Source: Thermococcus piezophilus
Lineage (GTDB): Archaea > Methanobacteriota_B > Thermococci > Thermococcales > Thermococcaceae
Direction of reading: 5' to 3'
Length of the DNA: 64,000 nucleotides
Assembly (NCBI RefSeq): GCF_001647085.1
Contig: NZ_CP015520.1
Coordinates: 496,001 to 560,000, forward strand
The notes below the pieces were generated by a model. The model did not search any database and was not told the DNA's origin. It saw nothing but the letters and a program-made list of their open reading frames with translations. The translations under genes and the position numbers were made by a program. Positions 21,538 through 56,336 of this stretch are shown piece after piece. Numbering within the stretch: position 1 is the first letter of the stretch; each line of letters begins with the position of its first letter.

Positions 21538-22180
21538 TCACCCAATCGCCGCCTTCATCCCCCCGAGCATCTTAACAACCCTATCAATCAGATCTCCGAG
21601 GCCCATCTCCTCCGGCGTCGTCTCGATGGCGAGGTTCATCTTAATCGGAACGATCAGCGTCTCGTCTATTGGCATAACAACCGTCTGGTTTATCGGCACC
21701 TCAAGGGTCATGTTGAGCGGCACTGTGGTGTCTACAACGTCCTTGAACCTAACCCTAACCGTCGTGACTATCGGGACATCGACGTAGGTATCAAGCGGAA
21801 TTATCACCGTCTCCTGCTTGCCGTTAACTTCGACGGTAGTGTTATGTTCTGGGCGATGTGCACTTTCACAGTCCTGTTTACGGGAACGTCAACGTAGGTA
21901 TCGAGAGGAACCTTCACGGCAATCTCCTCATTTACCGGAACCCTCGCCACCATGGAAACGGGAACACTGAGGTTCATCTGGAGAGGGACCTGTATCTCCT
22001 GGTCGAACGGATACTGGATTGTTATCCTCTCGCTCTTCATGCCATCCACAAGGGTTATGACACCCTCTATCTCCTCCAGCGCTATGCTCCTGGCTTGAGT
22101 GCACCGTAGACCATGCCGATGTGGAAGACAAGCAGAACAACCACGAGAACCGTCAGCACCTTAATTAATTTCTTACCCAT
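21538..22180 (-). pseudogene. Membrane-anchored beta-repeat protein, broken by two frameshifts
   Basis: The N-terminal anchor MGKKLIKVLTVLVVVLLVFH (from ATG 22180) is followed by a shift near 22090 into ALEEIEGVITLVDGMKSE. That part runs to about 21840, where a second shift leads into TVEVNGKQETVIIPLDTYVD. The middle is built of repeated strands with the phrase PLDTYVDVP occurring twice and many (I/V)P(I/V/L) pairs. It ends with a short helix (LGDLIDRVVKMLGGMKAA). Joined length is about 213 residues. I do not recognise a characterised family. Confidence 0.65.
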
Positions 22181-22390
22181 TACCCACACCCCATCATTAA
22201 CTTTTGGTTCTCGAAGAATTTAAGGGTTGGGTTTGAAAAAGCAGGAAATTCCATTTCTCCGTCTTTTCAATGTACGATTCGATTTCCATTTTAGCTAACT
22301 ACTAAACACTCCATCTCAAACCAAATTCCCAACCTGATTGAAATTATCTCGGAAAGTTGCCAAAAAATTTTGATTTAAATAAAAGTAAAG

Positions 22391-22400
22391 ATTTATATAG
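22391..22400 (+). promoter_or_regulatory. TATA box for the putative structured RNA
   Basis: ATTTATATAG preceded by the purine-rich AAAAGTAAAG. Transcription would start near 22418, just before the closing stem of the RNA at 22424. Confidence 0.5.
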
Positions 22401-22423
22401 TTAAAGCACCTAAGGGTATATGT

Positions 22424-22580
22424 GGAGCGCCTGCGGGGGAGACTGAAGCGAAAGCTTCACCCCAGGCAGATCTAACCCGAACAGTGATTCCGTGATCCGA
22501 GAGGGTTATGGGCCACTATTACGCAGGGAAAGGTCTGTCAAGAGTGAAACTTCACTCCAGACTCGTCTGTATGACGCTCC
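22424..22580 (+). ncRNA. Putative structured non-coding RNA of about 160 nt
   Basis: The ends pair (GGAGCG 22424-22429 with CGCTCC 22575-22580). Inside, CCTGCG (22430-22435) pairs with CGCAGG (22522-22527). Within that arm are GGGG/CCCC (22436-22439/22460-22463) topped by TGAAGC-GAAA-GCTTCA, a stem with a GAAA tetraloop. TAACCC/GGGTTA (22473-22478/22503-22508) follows. The third arm is GTCTG/CAGAC (22533-22537/22558-22562) with an inner GAGTG/CACTC hairpin. The stretch is GC-rich in an AT-rich spacer, has its own TATA box and no coding frame. It may be one of the GC-rich RNAs reported in Pyrococcus (hgc-type); I cannot confirm which. Confidence 0.6.
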
Positions 22581-22583
22581 TCA

Positions 22584-23935
22584 CTATTCTACCGCTCCGT
22601 TTCTAAACGGTGTGGCCATTGCCAGCATCTCATTTAAATCTTCCAAATCATACACCATACCCCCTATCCTTTCTTTACTCCCAATCCTCTTCGCAACGAG
22701 CACTAAATGAATCCTCCGCTTATCCCCCACAGCTTCGGCTTTTTTGGACAGCAATTTGAGCTCCTTTTTGGCCTCGCCAAAGCTCAGCTCCTCCCACTTC
22801 ACCTCAAAAAACGCAATGTCTTCCCTTCCGAGGGCGACCACATCAATCTCAAAGGAATCCTTACCCTTCTCCTTGCCTTTGAACTTCCCCCAGAGCTTGC
22901 CCGTTCTGATGACCCCAAAAGGCACAAGTTTTGGAACAAGCAGCTCCACCAGACTCTCAAACTTACGGCCAACGTAAGCGTTGAAATCGTTTTTATCAAA
23001 GCTCAGCTCGCTCCTCTCGAGCTTGGAATAATTCCGCCACAGAAACCTGAACCAGAAGTCAACCAGGTTTTGGGTTATGTAATACCTGTTTCTCCCCCGC
23101 TCAAAGACATCTTTCCGCTTTGTGACTAGTTCATACTCCCTCTCAAGGGCTACGAGATACTTGGTGAGGCTCGTGCTATTGACGGACAGATAAGAGGAAA
23201 TCTCCCCTAGCATGTTCTTGCCCTCGCTTATCGCTTGGAGGATGCTGAAGTAAGTCCTGTACTCCTTACCTAGCTCCTCCTTGAGCATCATGAGGACTTC
23301 AGGAAACATTGGATAAAGCTCCTCAAAGAACATCATACGGATGAAGTCCTCAACCGGCATACTGAATCTCTCAAGCGTCTCGTAGTACTTGGGCAAGCCG
23401 CCAAAGACTGCCCACATCACAACGGCGTCCTCGATGCTGTAACCCAAATCGCGCATTATTTCCGTCACTGTCCAAAAACCCAGCTCCCGGAGTTTTATAA
23501 TGTAATCAAACCTACCATAAAGCGGGTCTTGATAGTCTTCAACAAGCTTCTTGCTCATACTAATGAGTGAACCCGTAACGACGAGCTTTGCATCGCGGTA
23601 CTTGTCGAGGAGCCTTTGGAGATCATAAAGAAAGGAGGGATTTACCTTGAGGGCATTCTGGAGTTCATCAATGAATATCGTCTCCCCTTCCCTCATTAAG
23701 AACTCAACGATTTCCTTCATAGAGTTGAGCGTTGGAATGTATCTCCTCTCGCGAATTTCTTCGCTCCAACCTCGGCATATTAAGGCCTCGTTCTTTTCGG
23801 CCGGGATGAAGAGCGTTATAGGGTTGAGAGTCTCCTCGACCAATCTAGTCTTTCCCACTCTGCACCGTCCGATTATGGCAATCTCTTGCCCCTTCTGAGG
23901 AGTTCAATCTCCCGCTCACGGTCATAAAACTTCAT
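22584..23935 (-). pseudogene. Archaeal AAA ATPase (DUF234-type), one-base shift before the P-loop
   Basis: ATG 23935 gives MKFYDREREIELLRRG, then the frame breaks at about 23888. In the next frame IAIIGRCRVGKTRLVEE supplies the P-loop and 424 residues follow without damage: TIFIDELQNAL (Walker B), VTGSLISMSKKLVEDY, a winged helix (GEISSYLSVNSTSLTKYL), and FEIDVVALGREDIAFFEVKW (nuclease-like). Only a single base is out of place, so the gene may be intact in the organism. It is a relative of the 15457-16821 protein. Confidence 0.8.
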
Positions 23936-34599: not shown

Positions 34600-35551
34600 C
34601 CCCACAAGGTATTTGGTGTTCTGGTATTTGAGAAACAGATTCGGGTACACCTCTTCAACGAAGTCATTCCAATGGAAACGATATTGTTCTCACCTGGTGG
34701 GATCAAGGATATTGGGTTACCTACTACTCATGGAGAGCCCCAGTCACCCAAGGAGTTCCAAACGAGTTCGTGGCTAAGTACTACTTGGGTATGATCACCA
34801 AGGAGGAGCTTATGAGTCTGGGTGTGGATTACGTCATTGTGTCATATGACACCATCCTAAAATTCCCATCTGTCTTAAATACCGCCGAAGTTCCTGTTAA
34901 GGACTACCCCATGATACCCATCCCCTGGTAGCAAAACAGGGGGATGTATTCATATTCTCTGTGGATTCATATTCAATAGCTGCACGTCCTATTAATGGAG
35001 GCTAGGAGATATTTGTAAACGTTGCCGGAACCGTATTTTCTCCCGAGAGGGCCTTTATTGAAGTGGGGAGTGATGTGAACGAAGTCAACATCACTGGAAC
35101 AACCAAAGCGAATGCATACGTTTATATAAACCTGAATTACGGATATGCCGTTCTAATGAACGATAACTCATTCCAGACAACATTGGCAAAACTCATGTTT
35201 ACCAATGAGTACCCACATTATACCCTCATCTATTCCGATGGTGGATATATTAAGATCTTTAAATTCAACCATCCAAATGTCCATGTCATCAAAAATGACA
35301 GCGACATAACATTAAAATTCATCAATGCCACGGGGACAGATTTAATCCTGGAGGGCTTCCTAGATAATGGCACCCTCGTTTTTGAGAAAAGGTACGATGT
35401 GGACGGCGTGGAGTACTTCAAGCTTCCATCAGAGCTTAACGGAAGTGTTGTAATAAGGTATTCATACCTCAAAGATGGTACTGTGCTTGACAGAGGAATT
35501 TTTAGGATAAACGAGACGACAACTACCTCGTACCCCCTAAAAAGATCCTGA
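34600..35551 (+). pseudogene. STT3/AglB oligosaccharyltransferase, C-terminal part, broken
   Basis: A frame from 34677 reads NDIVLTWWDQGYWVTYYS, holding the WWDxG motif of archaeal STT3/AglB enzymes that transfer glycan from dolichol carriers to Asn. It continues GVPNEFVAKYYLGMITKEE and MSLGVDYVIVSYDTILKF, then stops at 34929. The next frame goes on (AKQGDVFIFSVDSYSIAARP), has an in-frame TAG at 35003, and runs to 35551 with the beta-rich end HYTLIYSDGGYIKIFKF. The N-terminal membrane half is missing. A GT39-like gene, also broken, follows. Confidence 0.7.
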
Positions 35552-56277: not shown

Positions 56278-56336
56278 GCGCCCTCCCCCTCACGCCCCTG
56301 GGAGAAGTGACCTGGGGTCGGTCGGGGAGGGCACAC
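56278..56336 (+). ncRNA. Candidate H/ACA guide RNA
   Basis: A lower stem GCCCTCCCC/GGGGAGGGC (56280-56288/56324-56332) is followed directly by ACA at 56333-56335. A pocket of six bases on each side (CTCACG and TCGGTC) leads to an upper stem CCCC/GGGG. It is capped by GG-GA-GAAGT-GA-CC, whose tandem GA pairs look like the K-loop bound by L7Ae. The distance from pocket to ACA (about 14-15 bases) fits archaeal H/ACA RNAs that guide pseudouridylation. The TATA box sits at the right distance. The target is not identified. Confidence 0.6.

Follow-up and report, generated by a model that had tools for sequence, protein, structure and literature searches.

The 64,000-nucleotide stretch of Thermococcus piezophilus DNA analyzed here (the window, to which all positions refer) holds in all probability a genuine structured RNA gene on its forward strand (Table 1). 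The locus lies between an upstream gene that is broken into overlapping frames and a convergent gene for a DUF234-type ATPase. The broken gene looks like a pseudogene, and the corresponding gene of a relative (L035, cluster 24) is intact and encodes 226 amino acids. That the RNA gene stands alone, has its own promoter, is non-coding and is absent from Rfam is well supported by the sequence, from which its transcription is deduced as well. The initial annotation had placed a probable structured RNA at 22391-22580, and these limits proved right; they run from the TATA box to the 3' half of the helix that closes the RNA.

Table 1. Positions of the RNA gene, its parts and other features in the window
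Feature	Positions	Strand	Remarks
Overlapping broken frames, apparent pseudogene	21538-22140	-	
Conserved upstream promoter region	22341..22391	+	column conservation 0.868 versus 0.45 in flank
A/T-rich element	22368-22391	+	
TATA box TTTATATA	22392-22399	+	invariant across 22 aligned copies
Structured RNA, inferred transcript of ~163-172 nt	22421..22583	+	start at or beside 22421; fold z, match to model R1, covariation
Match to model R1	22421-22592	+	
P1 terminal helix, 5' strand	22421..22443	+	3' partner 22560-22583; cells paired to 94.6%, both-side changes in 10 pairs
P2 hairpin UGAAGC-GAAA-GCUUCA	22444..22459	+	95.7% paired; sequence almost invariant, near-identical in second type
P3 long variable arm with internal loops	22467..22537	+	helices 3-5 of pair count; 12 pairs changed on both sides
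P3 apical stem	22490-22511	+	GAGA cap (GNRA-type loop)
P4 hairpin with conserved loop (G/A)AACUU	22541..22558	+	83% paired in alignment A4
P1 terminal helix, 3' strand	22560..22583	+	partner of 22421-22443
Pyrimidine-rich tail CTATTCTACC, likely termination region	22584..22594	+	similar CTATTCT / TTCTTCT / TTGTTCT tails in relatives
Convergent DUF234-type ATPase gene	22584-23858	-	
Frame of 162 aa resembling AglB C-terminal part	35063-35551	+	
Pab91 H/ACA guide RNA	56280-56335	+	

Promoter and extent of the RNA gene

When copies from relatives were aligned together with their flanks, conservation extended from about position 22341 to 22594, with values of 0.87 for the upstream element, 1.0 for the TATA box and 0.78 for the RNA, and fell to 0.45 and 0.43 on the two sides. 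The upstream region contains an A/T-rich element, TTTTG(C/A)TTTAAATAAAAG(C)AAA, and also covers the expected position of the BRE. Across 44 loci, the element started 24 bp before the TATA box in genes of the Thermococcus type and 34 bp before it in most genes of a second type described below. This difference in spacing amounts to about one turn of DNA, as for a bound regulator. The spacing between the TATA box and the start of the terminal helix was 28 or 29 nt in 41 of the 42 copies that bear a TATA box; the lone exception, with 27 nt, is a copy in which the box is mutated. As this distance is fixed, transcription should begin at the helix. The own TATA box proposed for the RNA was thus present, at a fixed distance from the RNA and conserved together with it. 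For comparison, TATA boxes in T. onnurineus were found between -30 and -20, and differential RNA-seq in that species listed 57 intergenic ncRNAs (PMC5316973).

The minimum free energy of the plus strand was -72.4 kcal/mol, compared to -53.0 ± 4.3 for dinucleotide shuffles (n = 200), which corresponds to a z of -4.56, and none of the 200 shuffles folded as well. The sequence is roughly self-complementary and its reverse strand folds too (z of -4.3); covariance model R1 scored 152.6 bits on the plus strand and 50.1 on the minus strand. The stretch had been described as GC-rich and free of reading frames. The former holds relative to the AT-rich flank (0.55 versus 0.27) but hardly sets the RNA apart from the surrounding coding DNA at about 0.5. 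As to the latter, a 72-aa frame with a GTG start does overlap the 3' half, but the observed conservation is accounted for by substitutions that follow base pairing.

Secondary structure and covariation

The fold consists of a terminal helix, P1, which joins both ends of the RNA, and of three arms, P2, P3 and P4. All elements of the fold drawn by hand in the initial annotation were recovered, namely the 6-bp closing helix GGAGCG/CGCTCC, the hairpin capped by GAAA and a third hairpin, which is P4. That fold was refined in two respects: the closing helix is longer, with about 20 bp and bulges, and the long arm P3 had not been described.

Two types of the RNA were distinguished, the Thermococcus type (alignment A4) and a second type (alignment A5) with members from genera g2 and g4 and from one g1 genome. 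In the second type, a 7-bp helix, GCCUCAG/CUGAGGC, occupies the position of P4. In A4, 91% of the cells were paired and 22 pairs had changed on both sides, compared to 14.1 ± 2.1 in shuffles; the covariation score was 0.304 versus 0.230 ± 0.008, and slid controls reached 0.116 at most. A5 was paired to 98%, with 12 both-side changes versus 3.9 ± 1.5. The second-type model was then applied to eight sequences of genera g5 and g6 that had not been used in building it. They were paired to 91%; both-side changes numbered 25, compared to 12.4 ± 2.2 in shuffles, and the score was 0.385 versus 0.237. This alignment was fitted to the model, which somewhat favors pairing, but the excess is large. Compensatory changes thus went beyond both shuffled and slid controls, as expected of a structured non-coding RNA, and covariation in the helices, a check named in the initial annotation, bore out its reading of the locus as a structured RNA. 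The covariation is located in P1 and P3 and extends across genera. P2 and P4 are too uniform for covariation to tell much about them; the two have the motif AGYGRAA(G)CUUCA in common. G-U pairs outnumbered A-C mismatches by 166 to 59 and by 86 to 7, an excess that identifies the plus strand as the RNA.

For the Thermococcus-type alignment, RNAalifold favored a rod in which P2 pairs with P4, and which likewise has 91% of its cells paired. The rod covaried no better than shuffles (2 pairs versus 1.7), and the four-helix model was preferred. In the second type P2 and P4 fold as hairpins, whereas in the Thermococcus type they pair with each other equally well in the rod. The RNA may conceivably switch between the two folds. 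Inspection of P2 and P4 by eye gave no convincing kink-turn motif.

Distribution, copy number and decay

The two covariance models, R1 and R2, detected the RNA in 41 of 94 Thermococcaceae genomes and in all six genera, at one or two copies each; a plain DNA search gave matches in 33 of the 94. Neither model matched in 21 further genomes of the phylum outside this family. In genus g3, which is probably Pyrococcus, only one of nine genomes carries the RNA. One genome of the genus Thermococcus (G046) has the second type, with 153 bits for R2 and 64 for R1, a sign that the locus was transferred between genera. Elsewhere in the T. piezophilus genome itself, only chance matches of 16-23 nt were found in the search for direct copies, and no second copy of the promoter. 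Viral contigs and plasmids gave no match, and phages only a weak A/T-rich one of 45 nt. A sequence-pattern scan of named genomes returned only metagenome assemblies, two of which are probable chance matches in Bacteria.

Three genomes have two copies in direct orientation, with 28 kb between them in G042, 22 kb in G039 and 15 kb in G087; the copies flank an island of glycan and sulfation genes or lie within it. In G042 the two copies (L039, L040) have identical 159-nt RNA cores and one TATA box is damaged (TTTACATG), which points to gene conversion or recombination. In G040, G038 and G026 (L035, L036 and L034), a degenerate second copy lies in tandem just upstream, with a gap of about 150 bp.

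Next to aglB, remnants of the RNA gene persist at its usual site in several genomes that neither model matched. A remnant of the promoter is fused to the 3' part of the RNA in G022 (L157, 3170-3276), the middle being deleted, and G060 and G062 have kept the 3' part alone. G080, too, has only the 3' part, and G027 has lost the promoter. Such remnants indicate that the RNA is old at this locus and dispensable, and their occurrence in genomes that retain aglB means that aglB and genes of this kind can do without it.

Genomic neighborhood

Within 6 kb of the RNA, surface-glycan genes occur at 39 of 44 loci and sulfate-activation genes at 24; 43 loci have one or the other, and a single one has neither. 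The downstream gene is convergent at 37 of the 44 loci and the upstream gene divergent at 34. The divergent upstream operon is often that of aglB or sat, and the RNA is often found at the edge of the island. Pfam names of the neighbors include ATP-sulfurylase, APS kinase, DHH phosphoesterase, phosphodiesterase, TauE/SafE, nucleotidyl transferase and epimerase. ATPases of the DUF234 / ATPase_2 family are frequent neighbors at many related loci. The label aglB rests on our reading of the sequence, that of an STT3-like membrane protein with WWDQGHWVTYYS, and a Pfam search with a truncated piece of the product gave no match. Putative aglB genes lie within 6 kb at 17 loci; often they are on the opposite strand, with a start some 200 bp away from the RNA. 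ATP sulfurylase was present in 38 of 41 carriers and 22 of 53 non-carriers (Fisher p of 1e-7, with genomes counted as independent despite their relatedness).

In T. piezophilus itself, sat is 130 kb away from the RNA and aglB does not adjoin it. A 162-aa frame further downstream in the window resembles only the C-terminal part of an AglB-like protein (59.6% identity), and an AglB N-terminal query found no match at E <= 1e-30 in the whole genome. This species may have lost aglB or have it in a truncated or very divergent form.

Interpretation and proposed role

The conserved element could matter mainly as DNA, as a border repeat that serves homologous recombination in the exchange of glycan islands, with an RNA that may be real being carried along. 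The direct copies around or within the island in G042, G039 and G087, the identical cores in G042 despite one damaged TATA box, the movement of the second type into G046 and the patchy presence would all suit such a repeat. However, a recombination site needs neither compensatory changes, nor an excess of G-U pairs on one strand, nor an invariant promoter at a fixed distance, and most carriers have a single copy; we therefore regard this explanation as unlikely, though it deserves to be kept in mind. A non-autonomous mobile element, either a transposon-derived RNA of the HgcC/omega-RNA type or a MITE, is the least probable of the readings considered. TnpB-like genes near three loci and the tandem degenerate copies in G026, G038 and G040 speak for it, but TnpB is encoded on the opposite strand and is absent from nearly all loci, the HgcC model (RF00062, transposon-linked) is negative in the T. 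piezophilus genome, copies never exceed two in a neighborhood that is nearly always the same, and plasmids, viral contigs and phages lack a credible match.

Two further explanations, both very improbable in our view, would tie the structure to the adjoining operons. It might be a cis-acting leader or riboswitch-like element of the operon downstream, since in G042 and G039 one copy precedes a glycosyltransferase operon on the same strand. That operon, however, has its own intervening TATA-like sequence, CGAAAA(A/G)CTTATTA, and a pyrimidine-rich tail terminates the RNA; the mostly convergent downstream genes together with the pairing of the RNA ends make a leader in cis unlikely. A bidirectional terminator or insulator between neighboring operons, with a structure effective either way, would explain the mostly convergent arrangement, in which the stop codon of the downstream operon is often only tens of bases away, as well as the rough self-complementarity and the folding and 50-bit score of the reverse strand. 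Termination in archaea does not depend on hairpins, though, an invariant promoter would make no sense for a terminator, and the G-U pairs are biased to one strand.

Our preferred reading, to which we give an even chance of being correct as a whole, is that of a new family of trans-acting structured RNA, transcribed from its own promoter, tied to glycan and sulfation genes, and forming a ribonucleoprotein that would control its neighbors. Function in general, and the regulatory step with it, is read from the neighborhood; the genes of the island are generally clustered, so that the neighborhood may reflect shared history and not function. The position of sat and aglB away from the RNA in T. piezophilus and the remnants in genomes that retain aglB also count against this reading. 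The near-invariance of P2 and P4 and the motif they have in common suggest a common binding partner. As a compact ribonucleoprotein acting in trans, the RNA would offer P2 (GAAGC-GAAA-GCUUC) and P4 (GRAACUU loop) as putative docking sites for one protein, which would either be held for regulation or be bound to the RNA as a scaffold, and the complex would control expression of the neighboring glycan and sulfation genes. The promoter of the RNA would itself be regulated, with the A/T-rich element that starts 24 or 34 bp ahead of the TATA box as the putative regulator site. More tentatively, and with some doubt, the RNA could represent a new class of trans-acting RNA in archaea. Such an RNA would have two hairpins for protein docking and a regulated promoter, would control how surface N-glycans are assembled and sulfated, and would travel with the variable glycan island, often marking its border. 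To our knowledge, little of how Thermococcales regulate their surface glycans has been explored. Should the RNA act on the neighboring genes for AglB, sugar nucleotides and sulfate activation, it would provide a concrete example of an archaeal cell surface controlled by RNA. With the two covariance models and the carriers listed, this can be tested directly in strains with genetics.

Relation to known RNA families

Rfam 15 gave no match at the RNA locus at gathering score, none at E <= 5 in the region 22300-22700, and none on the copies of relatives either. A tRNA scan was empty, in agreement with the earlier view that the RNA resembles neither tRNA nor RNase P RNA nor SRP RNA. With SRP RNA, RNase P RNA and bacterial 6S RNA it has an analogous architecture, with a long helix that joins the ends, GNRA loops and an own promoter, but it lacks similarity to their models and is absent from about half of the genomes.

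Of the two identities suggested for the RNA at the outset, a known hgc-type RNA of Pyrococcus is not supported and something new fits; Rfam, another of the checks named, returned no family. The hgc and ssc RNAs (HgcC RF00062, HgcE, HgcF, HgcG and SscA) are likewise GC-rich structured intergenic RNA genes of Pyrococcus and Thermococcus, but the present RNA matches no Rfam model at E <= 5, and it is carried by the one genome alone among the nine of g3. Several HgcC RNAs are transcribed from transposase genes (PMC4247193), unlike the present RNA.

Similar in description are sRk48 and sRk52 of Pyrococcus abyssi, which are also repeated Thermococcales RNAs of 130-190 nt with a BRE/TATA promoter and several stems, among them one with a highly conserved sequence (PMC3124441). 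They are reported to have six copies in P. abyssi and further ones in P. furiosus, P. horikoshii and T. kodakarensis, and their architecture is described as P0-P3 with a K-loop in P2 (PMC3124441). By these descriptions the two would differ, as P2 of the present RNA has a GAAA tetraloop instead of a K-loop, and as most g3 genomes lack the present RNA, unlike sRk48/sRk52 as described. The RNA thus resembles the hgc RNAs and sRk48/52 in kind and differs from them in model match, distribution and context. Its kind, an orphan structured RNA of archaea, is known and, judged by open PubMed Central papers, the family appears to be new, though supplementary tables may contain it as an unnamed entry. 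Structured RNAs with such strong covariation that are nevertheless outside Rfam are uncommon in well-sampled archaea.

Archaeal H/ACA guide RNAs such as Pab91 are small structured RNAs of Thermococcales as well. As a candidate, this class was rejected: the 3' end, CUCCUCAC-UAUUCU, has no ACA box, no H/ACA family matched, and the ends are paired in the long terminal helix. Pab91 itself is encoded further downstream and was the sole Rfam match in the window.
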